From positions 1 to 52,788 of the forward strand of contig JACQSB010000002.1 in the NCBI GenBank assembly GCA_016206175.1: 52,788 nt of DNA, given 5' to 3'. Below the pieces are notes generated by a model. That model had not been told where the DNA came from, searched no databases, and worked only from the letters and a program-made list of their open reading frames with translations. Each line of letters begins with the position of its first letter. Position 1 is the stretch's first letter. Shown here piece after piece: positions 25,310 through 34,012 of the stretch. The DNA comes from Candidatus Uhrbacteria bacterium (GTDB lineage: Bacteria; Patescibacteriota; Patescibacteriia; JACQRZ01). Both the position numbers and the translations under genes were made by a program.

Positions 25310-25365
25310 GTCATCTCGAACGTTCGCTCAAGGCAGATAAACCTCTGGTGGACGTTCGGGATGAC
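25310..25365. repeat. imperfect palindromic repeat
   Basis: GTCATCTCGAACGT...ACGTTCGGGATGAC. Confidence 0.6.
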
Positions 25366-25392
25366 GCACAAGATGTAGAAAGGAATGGATCA

Positions 25393-26520
25393 ATGAAGCG
25401 GGTGCTCGCGACTGCGGTCGCGTTGATCATGGCCCTGGTTGGCTGCCAGCCCAAGGAACCCCGGCGGATTTACGTCTTTTCGGGTTTCAATCCGGTTAAG
25501 GTCGTCGAAGACGACCCGGTCGCGGTTGAGGCCGGAAAGTTTTTCGATTCGTACCAGCATGATGTCGAGGACGATGCCAGCAACAGCTACAAGGATTTCG
25601 TCCGTGAGTACAATTCCTTCGCTGCCAAAGTGCGGCCGTCCATAGCGCTGCCCACGGCTTCCGCGGAGCTCGATCGGGATGCAGCTCTGGATGCCAACGC
25701 GAAGTTGAACGCCTATCTCGCGCCGAAGGGGTGGCTATTCCGGATTGCAGACGCGTATGCGTCGGATTTGTCCGGCGAGCCAATGATAATCCGTATGCTC
25801 ATGATGGGCAAGCTGCACTCGGTGCGGCATGGGAAGCTAACGGATGTTCGTGGTACGACCGTGTCTTATACGGAGTCGATCGTCGCGTACGCTAAGCAGA
25901 CGCGTGCTCGGGAGAAGACGTTCCGCTTTACGGCGTTCACAGAAGGCAGGGAAATCTACCACTTCCTCGACGGGCTCGAGTGGTCCGCGAGGCGAGTGAT
26001 TGATGACTGCCGTGACGGCGCTGCCGATGGTGCGGAATTTTCCCAGCTCGAGTGGGCTGATTACCTCAAGGACGGCACCACGCCGCAGTTCGAGGCCCGG
26101 GTCATGGGCGACCTGCTGCGCAGCGCTTCGGCGCATGAGCGTCAGCATGTCGTTGACCACGAGTTTGGCGAGTTGCGACTAACCAAGGACGACGCGGCAA
26201 TCATGAAGGTGAAGTTTCTCATGGAGACTCGGGGTCTCTTGGCACAGATCGCCAGTGGCGATCTTGAGATCTACGGCCTTGGTCACGCCGCCGAGTGGCA
26301 GGAGTCCAGTGAGAGGCTTAACAGCCTCGCGGGCTGGGCTGTGATGCAGGCGATCGGCCAACTACCCAAAGACCCGGCGATCCGGAATTGGCTGCGCCGC
26401 AAGGCATCCGCCGAGCTCAAGACGAGTGATCTCCTGGTTCTCTCGTCGCTTCGCCACAAGGCCGATCCCGACCCGGTTGGTAGGGCCAAGGAGGAGTACC
26501 AGTACCAGCGCGGTCGGTAA
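25393..26520 (+). CDS. putative lipoprotein with HExxH motif
   Basis: MKRVLATAVALIMALVGCQ lipobox; SAHERQHVVDHEFG; AAAGGA upstream of ATG; high GC. Confidence 0.8.
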   Translation: MKRVLATAVALIMALVGCQPKEPRRIYVFSGFNPVKVVEDDPVAVEAGKFFDSYQHDVEDDASNSYKDFVREYNSFAAKVRPSIALPTASAELDRDAALDANAKLNAYLAPKGWLFRIADAYASDLSGEPMIIRMLMMGKLHSVRHGKLTDVRGTTVSYTESIVAYAKQTRAREKTFRFTAFTEGREIYHFLDGLEWSARRVIDDCRDGAADGAEFSQLEWADYLKDGTTPQFEARVMGDLLRSASAHERQHVVDHEFGELRLTKDDAAIMKVKFLMETRGLLAQIASGDLEIYGLGHAAEWQESSERLNSLAGWAVMQAIGQLPKDPAIRNWLRRKASAELKTSDLLVLSSLRHKADPDPVGRAKEEYQYQRGR

Positions 26521-26692: not shown

Positions 26693-27151
26693 TCAACGTG
26701 CAGCTGCTTGCCGCATACTGCCACCAAGGTCGGTGTTGAAGTCAATCACCTCGGGAGAGTTAGTGCGCGTGATGATCTCAACGCGCTGCCCAGCAGTCAT
26801 TTCGAGCACGAGGACAGTCCACGAGTCCCCGTCGTTTTCCTTGGTGATCCGCAACACAGGGGTAGGATTTCCTTTGACGATATGCTCCACCGCACCATGC
26901 GGAGCCGATATTATGAGCAGGGCAACGTGATCAGTTGTCCTGTCATCAGCAGGCCGGAGCTTTAGCTCCGCAAGATCAAGGACTGTGGAATTGCGTTCGA
27001 TGGTGTATGTGCCTTGGTAGAGGACCCGCTGGCCCTCCGGCACCGCGACCGTAAGTGTGTATATCGTGCCATCATCCTTTTGGCCGAGGACGGTCGTGCC
27101 TTCCGGCAGTCCGTGTACCTTTTTCCCGTCGATGTGATAGAAGAAATGCAT
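26693..27151 (-). CDS. hypothetical protein, 152 aa
   Basis: ORF with strong SD (reverse complement GAAGGAGGGAGAATG); beta-rich; no recognised domain. Confidence 0.65.
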   Translation of the reverse strand: MHFFYHIDGKKVHGLPEGTTVLGQKDDGTIYTLTVAVPEGQRVLYQGTYTIERNSTVLDLAELKLRPADDRTTDHVALLIISAPHGAVEHIVKGNPTPVLRITKENDGDSWTVLVLEMTAGQRVEIITRTNSPEVIDFNTDLGGSMRQAAAR

Positions 27152-27162
27152 TCTCCCTCCTT

Positions 27163-27567
27163 CTACACTGCTTGGCTCGGACGCTGCCCAGACTGGAATG
27201 CGTCGAAATCCATGAGGAGCAGACCTTGCGTCTCGTCAAGATAAATGACGTAGGCCGGCCCCGCGACTCCCCTCCACCATTGCAGGGCATCACCAGGATA
27301 CATCCTGACGAAACCGCTGCCACCATACAGTATCTTTCCATCGCCAATGCGAAGCATGCTGTCCTGCGCAACCAGCAGGATCTCGACGTTCAGCAATGCG
27401 TTCCAGTACCCATCCGAGGAGTTGATGTGGAGGAGCACTGATCCATCTTCCCTCACGAATCTCGCGAGATTTCCAAGGAATCTCTGCTCGGCGATGATAT
27501 CTTCCGAGCGTTGTTCGACGTGAATGTCCCGTACAGCAAGAAGCTGCGTGAGTTGCATGTACGCCAT
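27163..27567 (-). CDS. hypothetical protein, 134 aa
   Basis: ORF 11 nt upstream of the 152-aa gene; purine-rich SD-like leader. Confidence 0.6.
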   Translation of the reverse strand: MAYMQLTQLLAVRDIHVEQRSEDIIAEQRFLGNLARFVREDGSVLLHINSSDGYWNALLNVEILLVAQDSMLRIGDGKILYGGSGFVRMYPGDALQWWRGVAGPAYVIYLDETQGLLLMDFDAFQSGQRPSQAV

Positions 27568-27709: not shown

Positions 27710-28945
27710 TTACCCGATCTTACTCAATGCTTCAATGCCAGGCAGAGTTCCTTTTTCCATGAACTCCAACATTGCCGCGCCGCCCGTAGAGATATGCGTG
27801 ATTTTATCTAAGTATTCCTTTTTCGATATTGCTGCCAGCGTATCGCCGCCACCCACCACTGATGTTGCTTCCGTGTTCTCTGTAATCGCATAATAAGTAA
27901 AATCTGTTCCTCTCCGATATTGCGGGTTTTCAAAATATCCCACAGGGCCATTCCAAACAATTGTTTTTGCTTTGCTGATGAGCGCTCCGTATTTTGCCTG
28001 GCTTTCCGGACCAAGATCAAGGATTTGATCTTGCTTTGTGAGTTCGGTGATTCGTTTGATCGCGCTTGCGTTTTCAGTATTCTTCGGATCGCCGACAGCG
28101 ACATCCGACGGCAAGATCACTGCGGTATTTTTTTGTGCTGCCAAGAAAAGAAGCCGTCGTGCGTGTTCGATGCGTTCGTACTCGCAGAAGCTTTTCCCCA
28201 CTTCATATCCCTGCGCGGCAAGGAACGTATTTGCCAGTCCGCCGCCGATCAGAAGGTAATCCGCAAGCTCGAGCAGTTTGCCGATGAGCGCAATCTTCGT
28301 GGCAATCTTTGCGCCACCGATGATTGCGACAAACGGTTTTTTCGGCTGCTCTAATAAATGCCCGATCATCTCAACTTCTCGTTTCAGGAGCAATCCGCCA
28401 TAGGAAGGAAGATACTGCGGAATGCCGACGACCGACGCGTCAGTGCGGTGGCTCACGCCGAACGCATCATTGACATACACTTGCGCAAGCGATGCAAGCT
28501 TGCGCGCAAAATCAGGATCATTTTTCTTTTCTTCATTATAGAAACGAATGTTTTCTAACAAGAGCACTTCGTCGGCAGCTTGGTCTTTCGGATATTCTTT
28601 GCGAGATGCTTTCCCTGTTTCACTGCTTTTATCGACTACTAGATCGGTAAGAAAGTCATTGACGAGCCGGACAGAATGCCCCGGTAAGTATTGCTGTAAT
28701 TTGTCCGCAACAACTTGAAGAGAATACGTTTTATCGCGTCCTTCGGGCCTTCCGAGGTGAGAGATAATGATAAGGCGGTTATTGTTTTTCAGCAGGTGCG
28801 TAATTGTGCCAAGCGATTGTTGGATACGCGTATCATCCGCAATCGCGGAGCTTGCGTCGAGCGACACATTAAAATCAACGCGTAGCAGCACTTTCTTGTT
28901 TTTTATCTCCACACTGTCAATATATTCAATTTTCGATCGAGGCAT
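27710..28945 (-). CDS. pgk: phosphoglycerate kinase
   Basis: KVLLRVDFNVSLD, IISHLGRPEG, LLLENIRFY, FVAIIGGAKIATKI, WNGPVGYFE, VGGGDTLAAI. Confidence 0.97.
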   Translation of the reverse strand: MPRSKIEYIDSVEIKNKKVLLRVDFNVSLDASSAIADDTRIQQSLGTITHLLKNNNRLIIISHLGRPEGRDKTYSLQVVADKLQQYLPGHSVRLVNDFLTDLVVDKSSETGKASRKEYPKDQAADEVLLLENIRFYNEEKKNDPDFARKLASLAQVYVNDAFGVSHRTDASVVGIPQYLPSYGGLLLKREVEMIGHLLEQPKKPFVAIIGGAKIATKIALIGKLLELADYLLIGGGLANTFLAAQGYEVGKSFCEYERIEHARRLLFLAAQKNTAVILPSDVAVGDPKNTENASAIKRITELTKQDQILDLGPESQAKYGALISKAKTIVWNGPVGYFENPQYRRGTDFTYYAITENTEATSVVGGGDTLAAISKKEYLDKITHISTGGAAMLEFMEKGTLPGIEALSKIG

Positions 28946-28960
28946 ACGAGAGAAGAATTA

Positions 28961-29797
28961 TTAATTTTTCCATTCTTGCACTGCTTGTTTATAGCTTTCC
29001 GGATCGCCGACATCAAACCATTGTCCGGCAAATAGATATCCTCCAAGCTTTCGGTCCTTTGCCAGTTTTGGAAATACATCCCGCTCTAATCGCCTTGCGT
29101 GTGCAGGAATGGCATCAAAGATTTTTGGCTCACAGATTGCAATGCCTGCGTTGATTACTTTGGAGAGATCTTTGCGGTGGTCGGGTTTTTCGAGAAAAGA
29201 ATAAATCTTGCTTCCTTGTACTCGCACCACACCCCAAGAGGACGACTTGGTGACGGATGTCAGCGCGAGGGTTGCAACGCCGTTGTTTGCGATATGAAAA
29301 TCAAACATATCGTCAAAGTCGATGCGTGCCAGCACGTCGGCATAATACAGGACGAATGGCCCGCTGGACAACAATTTCTTCGCTTGTCGCACCGGCGTTG
29401 CGGTGCCGACTTCTGATGTGCCTTGTTCGAGATACGTGATCTTTACGCCGTAGCGGCTACCATCCCCAACGTGTTCACGTATTTTTTCGCCGTGATAACC
29501 GATCGAAAGGATGATCGAGCGAATGTCATGGCGCCGGAGATTTTCAATGATATGGTCTAATACCGGTCTGCCGTTTACCGGGATTAGGCACTTTGGCATC
29601 TCATAGGTGAAGGGGCGCATTTTTACCCCCTCTCCGCCGGCGAGAATCAATGCCTTGCGCAAACGAGGACCGAAATAGCGAGTAAGGACATACTCGATGG
29701 CGTGCGAGCGGTTGCGAATGCGCGTACCGTCGATATATTCATCGAGCTTACGTAAAATGTCTTTGTTTAGGGTGATCGTCAGTCTTCCTCGATCCAT
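28961..29797 (-). CDS. NDP-sugar nucleotidyltransferase with N-terminal ribbon-helix-helix domain
   Basis: N-term RLTITLNKDILRKLDEYIDGTRIRNRSHAIEYVLTRYF (RHH), then ALILAGGEGVKMRPFTYEMPKCLIPVNGRPVLDHIIENL. Confidence 0.88.
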   Translation of the reverse strand: MDRGRLTITLNKDILRKLDEYIDGTRIRNRSHAIEYVLTRYFGPRLRKALILAGGEGVKMRPFTYEMPKCLIPVNGRPVLDHIIENLRRHDIRSIILSIGYHGEKIREHVGDGSRYGVKITYLEQGTSEVGTATPVRQAKKLLSSGPFVLYYADVLARIDFDDMFDFHIANNGVATLALTSVTKSSSWGVVRVQGSKIYSFLEKPDHRKDLSKVINAGIAICEPKIFDAIPAHARRLERDVFPKLAKDRKLGGYLFAGQWFDVGDPESYKQAVQEWKN

Positions 29798-29821
29798 AGG
29801 GATTTCGGCAAATTATTCTTG

Positions 29822-29853
29822 ATCATACTATATCATACGAAAGTATGGGTCAA
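29822..29853 (-). promoter_or_regulatory. promoter/operator region of the RHH-nucleotidyltransferase gene
   Basis: ATCATAC at 29822 and 29832 (10-bp phase) plus inverted GTATG at 29843; reverse-strand TTGACC at 29853-29848 and -10-like TATAGT/TAGTAT. Confidence 0.5.
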
Positions 29854-29877
29854 GAAGCTCTTGTGGACAATATATCC

Positions 29878-29906
29878 TTGCCCCGTATCTTTTCACAGAG
29901 TACAAT
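29878..29906 (+). promoter_or_regulatory. sigma70-like promoter for the aminotransferase (TTGCCC-N17-TACAAT)
   Basis: -10 ends 6 nt before ATG 29913. Confidence 0.65.
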
Positions 29907-29912
29907 AACCCC

Positions 29913-31124
29913 ATGTCTCGACACCTCGCAGATTACTATTCTCGCTCTGTATCGATCACCCGCGCGTTGGATTGTTTCGTCTTTGACAGATCGGGGAAGA
30001 AATATCTCGACTGCATTGCCGGCTGGTGCGTCGGTACTGTCGGTTGGGGTAATGCCGAAGTGCGTGATGCGATCGTACAGGAAGCGGCGGAAGGAAGGTA
30101 TGTACCTCCGCTTTTTCGTTTTGAAAAACAGGAGGAATTCGCGACGCTACTTTGCAGGCTCGCGCCGCATAAAAAATTAATCAGAGCGTTTCGCTGCACA
30201 TCCGGTTCCGAGGCTGTCGAGTTTGCGATCAAATGCGCACGTGCCACAACGCGGAAAAGCAACATTGTTTCCATTGACGGCGTATATCACGGCCATACTT
30301 ACGGCGCGGCTGCTGTCGGTGAGGCATGCGGCAGAAACTCTGCAATGGCTCCCTGCCCCCCAGGCTTTTTGAAACTGCCGCTCCCTCATCCATTGCACGG
30401 TCCGAGCGAGGATGCTGTTATAGAAGAATTCGCAAAACTTGTTCAGAGCACTGCCGACATAGCCGCTTTTATGAGTGAACCTGTTTGGACCAATGCCGGC
30501 GCAATCGTGCCGTCATCTTCTTTTTACCCGAGGATCGAACGCATTTGCCGCAAGAATAACATCCTTTTTATCATGGACGAGGTTGCTACCGGCTTCGGGC
30601 ATTGCGGTACGCTTTTTGCAAGTGAGTTATGGGGTCTGCAGCCAGATATCCTCTGTCTCGGCAAAGGGATTAGCGGCGGGTATGGGACCATTGCGGCAAC
30701 TCTCGTCACAGAGTCAGTATTCCGTAAAAGCAGATCGATCCCTTCGTACTCAACTTTTGGCTGGGTGCCGCTCGACATGGCGGCCGCGCGAGCAAATATC
30801 GAAATCATTGTTCGTGAAAAATTATGGAAGAACGCTTCTGATGTCGGTGCCTATTTTCTCGAACAGCTTCGCGCAGCGTTTTTATCCCATCCGTGCGTTG
30901 GTGATATTCGCGGCATCGGGCTTGTCCTTGGTATCGAGATTGTGAAAAATAAAAAAAAGAACACACCGGATAAGATCCGAGCATTCCTCATACAGCGCGC
31001 ATGTGAAAAAAGAGGACTCCTCCTTGAGACCATTGATGGCGTACTCTTTTTGACTCCCCCTCTGATCTTTAGCCGTGCTCATGCCGACGAAGCAGTCAGT
31101 ATTCTGAAGAAAGTGCTGCGATGA
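29913..31124 (+). CDS. class III PLP-dependent aminotransferase
   Basis: SGSEAVEFAIKCAR, VYHGHTYGA, LFIMDEVATGFG, PDILCLGKGISGGYG. Confidence 0.92.
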   Translation: MSRHLADYYSRSVSITRALDCFVFDRSGKKYLDCIAGWCVGTVGWGNAEVRDAIVQEAAEGRYVPPLFRFEKQEEFATLLCRLAPHKKLIRAFRCTSGSEAVEFAIKCARATTRKSNIVSIDGVYHGHTYGAAAVGEACGRNSAMAPCPPGFLKLPLPHPLHGPSEDAVIEEFAKLVQSTADIAAFMSEPVWTNAGAIVPSSSFYPRIERICRKNNILFIMDEVATGFGHCGTLFASELWGLQPDILCLGKGISGGYGTIAATLVTESVFRKSRSIPSYSTFGWVPLDMAAARANIEIIVREKLWKNASDVGAYFLEQLRAAFLSHPCVGDIRGIGLVLGIEIVKNKKKNTPDKIRAFLIQRACEKRGLLLETIDGVLFLTPPLIFSRAHADEAVSILKKVLR

Positions 31125-31777
31125 TTTTGTTTCCTATGCTTTTTTACGATCGGCGCGATGCCGCAAACAAATTAGCGGAGGCGCTAAAAAAATACGAAGG
31201 CAAACAAAATACGATTGTTGTCGCGTTGCCTCGCGGCGGAGTAGTGCTCGGTCGCATCGTTGCTGATGCCTTGCATGTTCCTCTTGATATCGTTGTGCCA
31301 CGCAAGATCGGGTACCCCGGCAATGAAGAATACGCTATTGGCGCACTGACCGAGACGGGTGATATCATCTGGAACGAAGAAGAACGTGCGCATGCCAACA
31401 AAGCAGAGCTTGAAAAAATTGTGGAGCGAGAGAAAAAAGAAGCACAACGTCGGCTATCGAAATATCGCGCTGGCATGCCAGATCGAAACTTTACGGGCAA
31501 GACGTTGATCATCGTTGATGACGGCATCGCGACTGGCTTAACCATGTTTGCTGCGATTAAAAGTGTCCGCACGCTTGGCGCTGCACATATCATTGTAGCG
31601 ATTCCGGGCGGACCGGCAGATACGGTTGAGAAGTTGAGGGAAGAAAAAGACATTGATGACGTTATTGTATTAGAAATTCCTTCATTGTTTTTTGCGGTCG
31701 GAGGGCTGTATCAGGAGTTTGGCCAAGTTGAAGATGAAGAGGTTATTAAGTTTATGAAAATAGCAACTAACAAATAA
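31121..31777 (+). CDS. phosphoribosyltransferase family protein
   Basis: VVALPRGGVVLGRIVADAL, DIVVPRKIGYPGNEEYAIGA, LIIVDDGIATGLTM. Confidence 0.9.
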   Translation: MILFPMLFYDRRDAANKLAEALKKYEGKQNTIVVALPRGGVVLGRIVADALHVPLDIVVPRKIGYPGNEEYAIGALTETGDIIWNEEERAHANKAELEKIVEREKKEAQRRLSKYRAGMPDRNFTGKTLIIVDDGIATGLTMFAAIKSVRTLGAAHIIVAIPGGPADTVEKLREEKDIDDVIVLEIPSLFFAVGGLYQEFGQVEDEEVIKFMKIATNK

Positions 31778-31809
31778 CACATGAAGCGAATCGTCATTCA
31801 CGGACCTGT

Positions 31810-32733
31810 ATGGTAAAAACCCTTGTATACACACTTCCGGATCCAACATCATGCGAGCAGTACATTCGCGATCAACTCGCATCTCCTGATTCTCCTTCGG
31901 CATTATGGAAGATGTTTCCAAACGGCGAACATTATGTGCGTCTGCCGCTGGTAGAGAAAGAAGTGGTAATAGTTGGCCGTACTTGGGGCGCGAGCGATAA
32001 TCTTTTTAAAACGCTGCTTTTAGTCCATGCGGCGAAACGGAACGGCGCGAAGCGCATCATTCTTGTCTTAACGTATTACGCATATTCCCGGCAAGACAGA
32101 ATGCGGCTTGAGGGCGAGCCGCTTTCAGGTTGGCTCGTTGCACACATATGCGCACAAGCCGGTGCGAGTGAGGTTATTACGATGGACCTCCATAGCAGGC
32201 GCGTGCAAGAAGAAAGCCCCATCCCTATCATCAGCGTTCCCTTCATCCAAGAACTCGCGCGGGCGTTTTGCGATGCGGAGCCTTCATTTGGGGATGTGAC
32301 AGTCGTTGCCCCTGATAAAGGAGCAAAAGATCACGCAAATGAATTTGCAAATTATTTGAAAGCAGGCAAGGAATGTATTTGGATCGAAAAAGAGCGGGAT
32401 CCGATAACCGGAGCAGTGCGTCAAGGCATTGTTCATGGTCTTGCTCACAACGGCCGAGCAGTATTGCTCGATGATATGCTTGATACCGGAGGCACGATCG
32501 CAGCGTCAGTGAATACGTTACGAGAACGCGGTTTTCATACCGTCTCTCTTTGCGTTACGCACCCCATTTTCTCCGGTGAAGCTCCTGCCCGGATGAGTAA
32601 GCTTGGTTTTTCGCACATCATTGTTTCAGACACTCTACCCCTCTCTGATGCCGCCGCTCACCTGCCAGGCATCCATGTCGTGCCAGCAGGTCCGAAACTT
32701 TGCGAAGTTATCTCCCGATCCCTTCGTAGGTAA
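31810..32733 (+). CDS. prs: ribose-phosphate pyrophosphokinase
   Basis: FPNGEHYVRL, LTYYAYSRQDR, ITMDLHS, VVAPDKGAKDHA, AVLLDDMLDTGGTI. Confidence 0.93.
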   Translation: MVKTLVYTLPDPTSCEQYIRDQLASPDSPSALWKMFPNGEHYVRLPLVEKEVVIVGRTWGASDNLFKTLLLVHAAKRNGAKRIILVLTYYAYSRQDRMRLEGEPLSGWLVAHICAQAGASEVITMDLHSRRVQEESPIPIISVPFIQELARAFCDAEPSFGDVTVVAPDKGAKDHANEFANYLKAGKECIWIEKERDPITGAVRQGIVHGLAHNGRAVLLDDMLDTGGTIAASVNTLRERGFHTVSLCVTHPIFSGEAPARMSKLGFSHIIVSDTLPLSDAAAHLPGIHVVPAGPKLCEVISRSLRR

Positions 32734-34012
32734 ATCCTGCCGCTTCGGCTGCGTTTCGCTCCAGCATATTCATGCCGTCAACGATCAATACTCCTGTTGT
32801 GATTGATCGTATTTCTTTGAGGCTCATTGCCTGAAATTCATCCCAGGCAGTGAGAAGCAAAAGCGCGTCTGCACCGCGCGCTGCATCATGGAGAGATGTA
32901 ACAAACGTAACCTCACCTGATCGAGAAAACATTTTTTTGAATGGTTCATTTGCTACCGGATCATAAGCAGTGATACGCGCACCATGATCGAGGAGTTCAT
33001 GAATGATGCGCAGCGCAGGCGCGCTACGTACATCATCTGTCATTGGTTTGAACGCCAATCCTAATACGGCGATGCGCGCCCCATGCAAGTTTTTCAAGTG
33101 TTTTTGCAGCTTTGTGATGACAATACGGTAGCGCAGATCATTGACGGTACTTAATGCTTTGATGATTTTGAACTCGTACCCATGTTCTTCCCCGCTCAAG
33201 GCTAGCGCTTTGACATCTTTTCCAAAACAACTTCCCCCGTATCCGATACCAGCACGCAAAAAGTGAGAGCCGATCCGTTTATCCAGTCCAATCGCATGTG
33301 CTACTTGTTTGACATCTGCTCCTACTAATTCGCAAAAGTCAGCGATTTCATTGATAAAAGAAATCCGAAGAGCAAGCATGGAATTTGCAGCGTATTTCGT
33401 CAGTTCTGCCGTAGCGATGTTTGTTGCGATAAAAGGAACGCCATCTTCAATCAGCGGGCGGTAGAGTGCGCGTAATCGTTGTTCTGCTTCAGGATGGTCA
33501 ACGCCCACTACAATGCGGTCAGGATGCAAGAAATCCTCTACAGCCGTTCCTTCTTTGAGAAATTCAGGATTCGTTGCGACGTAAAATTGATCGTCTCCGC
33601 GCGCTTTGCTGATCGTCTCGCGGATTTTTTCGATGGTGCCGACCGGAGCAGTTGATTTGTTGATGAAAAGCGTGCCGGTAGCACAAAGAGGAGCAACGGT
33701 TTTTGCGGCATTCAATAGATAGGTGAGATTTGCTTTTCCATACTCGCCTTCCGGAGTGTTGACGGCGAAAAATACTGCTTCGGCATCTTTTACCGCATCT
33801 TTGATGTCAGTGGTGAATCGGATGCGCCCCTTCGAGAGGTTCTCTTTCAGAAGATCTTCAAGGCCAAGCTCATAGATGGGGCAGATGCCGCGCGCAAGCT
33901 TTTCAATTTTTGCAGGGTCGATATCGGCACACACTACCGAGTTGCCGAAATGGGCAAATCCTACTCCGGCAGTGAGGCCCACATACCCGCTTCCGATTAT
34001 TGCAATTCGCAT
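32708..34012 (-). CDS. UDP-glucose/GDP-mannose dehydrogenase family protein
   Basis: MRIAIIGSGYVGLTAGVGFA, FINKSTAPVGT, GIGYGGSCFGKDVKAL, AVLGLAFKPMTDDVRSAPAL. Confidence 0.95.
   Translation of the reverse strand: MRIAIIGSGYVGLTAGVGFAHFGNSVVCADIDPAKIEKLARGICPIYELGLEDLLKENLSKGRIRFTTDIKDAVKDAEAVFFAVNTPEGEYGKANLTYLLNAAKTVAPLCATGTLFINKSTAPVGTIEKIRETISKARGDDQFYVATNPEFLKEGTAVEDFLHPDRIVVGVDHPEAEQRLRALYRPLIEDGVPFIATNIATAELTKYAANSMLALRISFINEIADFCELVGADVKQVAHAIGLDKRIGSHFLRAGIGYGGSCFGKDVKALALSGEEHGYEFKIIKALSTVNDLRYRIVITKLQKHLKNLHGARIAVLGLAFKPMTDDVRSAPALRIIHELLDHGARITAYDPVANEPFKKMFSRSGEVTFVTSLHDAARGADALLLLTAWDEFQAMSLKEIRSITTGVLIVDGMNMLERNAAEAAGFTYEGIGR

Follow-up and report, generated by a model that had tools for sequence, protein, structure and literature searches.

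The window, that is, the whole 52,788-nucleotide stretch analyzed here, comes from a draft genome of 0.93 Mb in 29 contigs (77% complete) and carries on its minus strand, at 28961–29797, a gene for a 278-residue protein with an ATG start, as defined by the open reading frame (ORF) listing, Pfam and full-length homologues. Residues 3–42 (29672–29791, minus strand) form a ribbon-helix-helix (RHH) domain resembling that of NikR, as judged by Pfam RHH_1, a profile match to NikR (1q5v) and residue conservation. Residues 48–275 (28973–29656, minus strand) form an NTP_transferase domain, assigned by PF00483 and by alignments to PDB structures. When the whole protein was compared with Pfam, PF00483 scored 137 bits over residues 48–275 and covered 241 of 245 positions; PF01402 (RHH_1), at residues 5–41, scored 20.5 bits, exactly its curated cut-off of 20.5. 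Chance was excluded as the source of this marginal score because 33 of 36 N-terminal domains from homologues of the protein also matched RHH_1. The nearest named relatives of the genome are MAGs of Candidatus Uhrbacteria, which places it within the Patescibacteria. The preliminary description of an RHH–sugar nucleotidyltransferase fusion at this position was borne out in its coordinates, strand and two-family architecture.

On the same strand, 15 bp downstream of the fused gene, lies a phosphoglycerate kinase (PGK) gene (27710–28945; Pfam PGK, E = 2.5e-131), which is probably co-transcribed with it. Beside PGK we found three ORFs with no significant Pfam match: one of 390 residues on the plus strand (25348–26520) and two short ones on the minus strand (26693–27151 and 27163–27567). 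On the other side, a divergent class-III aminotransferase gene (29913–31124, plus strand; Pfam) has its own promoter, predicted by the promoter scan as TTGCCC-17-TACAAT at 29878–29906, and is not among the candidate targets given below. The region next to it (31121–34012) holds a phosphoribosyltransferase gene and a PRPP-synthetase-like gene; a UDP-glucose/GDP-mannose dehydrogenase gene lies there on the opposite strand.

Of 381 genomes of the window's class, 41 had a full-length homologue of the fusion beginning at residues 1–5, two of them truncated at a contig or match end; in a sample of 380 genomes from the phylum the number was 44. We aligned 75 distinct fused proteins together with 12 homologues that have no RHH. 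Identity to the window protein was higher in the RHH than in the nucleotidyltransferase domain in 65 of 65 comparisons (means of 64% vs. 49%), which rules out a mis-set start codon. Across the 75 fused proteins the stretch RLTIT...IRNRSHAIE was near-invariant, with N29, R30 and S31 invariant and R5, T7 and T9 nearly so; a start downstream of the RHH, the alternative that the preliminary description had itself raised, was effectively excluded. Because the RHH is consistently the more conserved domain, the comparison says that the constrained function of the fusion protein would be DNA binding. Viral contigs yielded no relative of the fusion protein, and plasmids yielded ordinary nucleotidyltransferases only, with no fusion. 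One apparently full-length plasmid match, from Haloterrigena, was rejected: the protein is GlmU, whose gene begins at the nucleotidyltransferase domain, so that the N-terminal part of the alignment was spurious. In the open-access papers searched, we found no description of an RHH–nucleotidyltransferase fusion.

A profile of 36 RHH domains was compared with PDB chains, and E. coli NikR ranked first (1q5v, E = 3.3e-6), followed by CopG and Pyrococcus NikR. In the window protein the strand reads R5-x-T7-x-T9, and N29-R30-S31 opens the second helix; the matching residues of NikR, R3, T5 and T7, are presumably those that contact bases. Structure prediction agreed with an RHH in the order of its elements and left the fold unproven: from a shallow alignment, AlphaFold modeled the domain alone as an extended segment (residues 1–11) and two helices (12–24 and 30–42) at a pLDDT of 62. 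A Foldseek search with this model gave no significant match, and the full-length protein, modeled from an alignment of four sequences, reached a pLDDT of 40, with no confident model. We attribute the weakness of the prediction to the shallow alignment.

Upstream of the fused genes we recognized a motif of the form GTATGAT-N3-GTATGAT or GTATGAT-N3-ATCATAC. In the window, motif scans and the comparison of upstream regions placed two candidate operator half-sites, both GTATGAT on the minus strand, at 29832–29838 and, 10 bp further on, at 29822–29828. The stretch proposed earlier for a gel-shift experiment (EMSA), 29798–29912, indeed holds this conserved candidate operator (29822–29838). A promoter scan predicted a −35 element TTGACC (29848–29853) and, after a 17-bp spacer, a −10 element TAGTAT (29825–29830), both on the minus strand, the latter overlapping the second half-site. 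Sites with at least 12 of 14 matches were found in 43 of 73 upstream regions, compared with 0.47% of random windows from the same loci and 0.34% of shuffled promoters; in 30 of the 73 no recognizable operator was present within 200 bp of the fused gene. Exact direct pairs within 45 bp (n = 26) were spaced by 10 bp in 23 cases and by 20 bp in three. Exact sites numbered 22, in 21 of the 41 fusion genomes, and 16 of them lay at most 200 bp upstream of the fused gene; 41 fusion-free genomes contained three. Fusion-free genomes, same-locus windows and shuffles were used as controls in place of the reversed motif, which is not independent because AGTATG-N3-TAGTATG matches the operator too.

Some loci showed other arrangements. 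Inverted half-sites (GTATGAT-N3-ATCATAC) with the same 10-bp step were seen at the fused genes L077, L178, L181 and L187, and three half-site repeats at L039 and L050. We considered and dropped a third half-site of the window promoter, in inverted orientation (CATAC before TTTCGTATGAT), since neither of the related genomes G001 and G005 keeps it. At locus L120 (G228:C38:20959) the exact operator is found not upstream of the fused gene but just downstream, where it precedes a protein-kinase-like ORF; related kinase-like ORFs also come after the fused gene at L199.

These pairs could, in principle, be mere promoter −10 elements, with the RHH serving as a dimerization or autoregulatory remnant. 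TATGAT differs little from TATAAT, the window's site and its predicted −10 overlap, and in 10 of 36 cases TTGAC precedes the site by 15 bp; however, the distance of TTGAC varies, and in 14 of 36 cases there is none within 40 bp. The G inside TATGAT is near-invariant (35/36 and 36/36) where the −10 consensus has A, and the leading G is conserved as well; because of this near-invariant G, the motif is more than a promoter box. The promoter reading is also at odds with the three repeats at L039 and L050, with the inverted pairs at L077, L181 and L187, and with the rarity of the motif elsewhere and in fusion-free genomes. Moreover, the motif equals the half-site of the closest characterized RHH protein, the operator of E. 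coli NikR being GTATGA-N16-TCATAC (PMC7055735). The GTATGAT half-site had been recognized upstream of the fused genes before the NikR match was noticed, so that the agreement was reached independently. We regard a pure promoter origin of the pairs as very improbable.

Three sites with at most one mismatch were found in the window's genome: in the fused gene's own promoter, before two tiny ORFs, and 33 bp upstream of a glutamate dehydrogenase (GDH) gene that is followed by the gene for PEP carboxykinase (PEPCK). This last site was also present in both close fusion-bearing relatives, G001 and G005. PEPCK occurred in 3 of 11 genomes of the family, exactly the fusion carriers, and in 13 of 381 genomes of the class, nine of them with the fusion (Fisher p = 4e-7, relatedness uncorrected). 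The PEPCK promoters of fusion genomes in other families had no site, which limits this target to the window's own family. In another family, genome G111 had sites upstream of an alpha-amylase gene and of a 446-residue ORF without a Pfam match. A scan of the window's genome for the inverted motif revealed no clear extra target; the genome being a draft, the target list is incomplete. As for the tiny ORFs, the operator-like site was seen before them both at L086 3404–3419 (G000:C28) and at L129 (G001:C45:4321). The second ORF ends in ...KLDPSVPRDEGINIDGGYFPLN in G000 and similarly in G001, and what lies downstream is tRNA-Phe in G000; in G001 it is a phosphoglycerate mutase-like ORF.

A core gene of glycolysis or gluconeogenesis stood beside the fused gene in 22 of 51 loci (~6 kb read at each), where a few percent would be expected by chance on a rough estimate (~10 such genes in ~1000). 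The neighbors included PGK (12 loci), PfkB kinase (8), class II aldolase (FBA; 8), GAPDH (6) and GlpX (4). This setting bears on the idea that the protein is an ordinary cell-envelope sugar nucleotidyltransferase whose N-terminus resembles an RHH incidentally. The 137-bit score over the whole length of the nucleotidyltransferase domain and a UDP-glucose dehydrogenase homologue at 32708–34012 would suit such an enzyme, but the neighboring genes belong to glycolysis and not to envelope synthesis, conservation is stronger in the RHH than in the enzyme domain, and the protein reached no NCBIfam equivalog cut-off (best 142 bits vs. a cut-off of 292). We consider this explanation highly improbable.

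The nucleotidyltransferase domain itself appeared to have lapsed. Active relatives carry the loop G-x-G-T-R-(L/M)-R-P, in which the Arg is required for catalysis, as established for RmlA and GlmU. In the window protein the nucleotide-binding loop is degenerate (residues 54–69, GGEGVKMRPFTYEMPK; 29591–29638, minus strand): it reads GEGVKMRP, with Val58 for the Thr and Lys59 for the catalytic Arg, in alignments to active enzymes and to the 75 fused and 12 RHH-less homologues. Of the 66 fused proteins of this kind, 63 had the Arg replaced or deleted, the position being occupied by Lys (35), a gap (10), Asn (6), Gln (4), Tyr (3) or others, including Thr, His and Asp; in the three that kept Arg, the loop was otherwise degraded. 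The residues for metal and sugar phosphate were kept in the same 66 proteins (D154 in 66, K204 in 64, D262 in 62 and E203 nearly always), and the pocket of the window protein also retains K69. Because the Arg was lost in 63 of 66 while the sugar-phosphate and metal residues were kept, the window protein is more likely a ligand-sensing pseudo-enzyme than an active enzyme. Residual activity is possible, since exchanging Arg for Lys is a conservative change, and one that is common there.

The preliminary description had proposed a trigger enzyme, and this part of it stood only in half: an enzyme-type domain does sit on an RHH, with putative control of its own gene and of other metabolic genes, but the loss of the Arg speaks against a working enzyme. 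On the trigger-enzyme account, Lys59 would suffice for catalysis, and the protein would alternate between nucleotide-sugar synthesis and gene repression, much as PutA does with proline. The retention of K69, D154, E203-K204 and D262 and the prevalence of Lys among the replacements (35/66) are what one might expect from it, as is a sister clade of fused proteins with GGEGTRLRP. It fits poorly, however, with the Asn, Gln, Tyr, Thr, His, Asp or deletion found at the Arg position of other fused relatives, and with the Arg present in 12 of 12 RHH-less homologues and 9 of 9 fused proteins with an intact loop. We also built a tree without the loop columns, by a quick method with a short search; in it the window protein fell in a well-supported group of nine, and one member of that group, L045, has the loop deleted. 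A true trigger enzyme at this locus thus seems unlikely to us, though less so than the promoter-only or cell-envelope explanations.

In the same tree, most of the fused proteins with an intact loop shared one supported group with RHH-less relatives. GGEGTRLRP is retained by a separate clade (L163, L164, L167, L170, L174 and L182), and these proteins may be true trigger enzymes, judging from the loop. L163, L164, L167, L170 and L174, which come from the phylum genomes, have the strand EKLTVT, with Lys replacing R5, and four of the five lie near aldolase and PfkB genes. None of the five has a GTATGAT pair. CGTAT repeats occur upstream of L164, L170 and L174, and they are perhaps a different operator.

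We concluded, with a probability of about 0.7, that the window protein is a one-component regulator of central carbon metabolism, controls its own gene as well, and has a sugar phosphate or nucleotide sugar as the ligand it senses. The reading moves away from an enzyme with a second, regulatory role and towards a regulator derived from an enzyme. The NikR-type RHH would dimerize, each dimer reading one GTATGAT half-site, and on GTATGAT-N3-GTATGAT two dimers would sit one helical turn apart on the same face of the DNA. Because operator and −10 overlap in the promoter of the fused gene, binding there would be expected to block RNA polymerase and so repress the fused gene and the downstream PGK gene; it is this position of the site, and only this, that suggests repression over activation. 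The GDH-PEPCK operon of the window's genome would be repressed likewise. The nucleotidyltransferase domain would no longer make a sugar nucleotide, yet could still bind a sugar phosphate or nucleotide sugar, a ligand class to which the retained pocket residues and the metabolic neighbors point. Ligand on this domain might alter the spacing of the RHH dimers or their oligomeric state, and with it the affinity for DNA.

More broadly, we lean slightly towards the view that the fused proteins form a large, undescribed family of glycolysis and gluconeogenesis regulators in Patescibacteria, in which the enzyme decayed stepwise while the sugar pocket was kept as a sensor, with a related active clade perhaps made up of trigger enzymes that use a different operator. 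The decay series, within the fused architecture, would run from an intact loop through Arg to Lys and then other residues to deletion of the loop. Little is known of how central metabolism is controlled in Patescibacteria, whose genomes are near 1 Mb. Here a single gene family offers a candidate regulator together with the DNA site it would read, its probable targets and the probable class of its ligand. Within one fused architecture it also displays clear successive stages on the way from enzyme to sensor, and the DNA target sequence of a putative sugar-metabolism switch can be read from genomes.

Comparison with known systems places the fusion protein among several partial likenesses. With NikR it has in common the N-terminal RHH, the R-x-T-x-T strand, the NRS opening the second helix, the GTATGA half-site and, putatively, a ligand-binding C-terminal domain. 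However, it cannot be counted as a NikR: its C-terminal domain is a sugar nucleotidyltransferase fold (NTP_transferase) in the place of the nickel-binding domain, which is absent, and its half-sites recur at a 10-bp step, mostly as direct repeats, whereas the NikR operator is the palindrome GTATGA-N16-TCATAC. The Omega repressor of pSM19035 is an RHH protein that acts on heptad repeats, direct or inverted, as the fusion half-sites are; it has no ligand domain, and its heptads are contiguous rather than spaced by 3 bp. Arch_glmU, mannose-1-phosphate guanylyltransferase and MurU have the fold and the residues on the sugar and metal side in common with the fusion protein, which differs in its degenerate GxGTR, its added RHH and its failure to meet any equivalog cut-off. 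Human GMPPA, the catalytically inactive paralogue of GDP-mannose pyrophosphorylase, has a nucleotidyltransferase fold that no longer catalyzes but still binds its nucleotide sugar and serves as a sensor (PMC11228364), a state that is putative for the fusion protein; GMPPA, however, controls a partner enzyme and lacks any DNA-binding domain, whereas the fusion protein has the RHH. Trifunctional PutA also carries an N-terminal RHH on an enzyme domain and shows autogenous control (PMC5293562), as predicted for the fusion, but it is an active proline-oxidizing flavoenzyme of an unrelated enzyme family, whereas the fusion protein has lost its catalytic Arg. One-component regulators with an enzyme-derived sensor domain are a known kind, on which this fusion would be a new variation.
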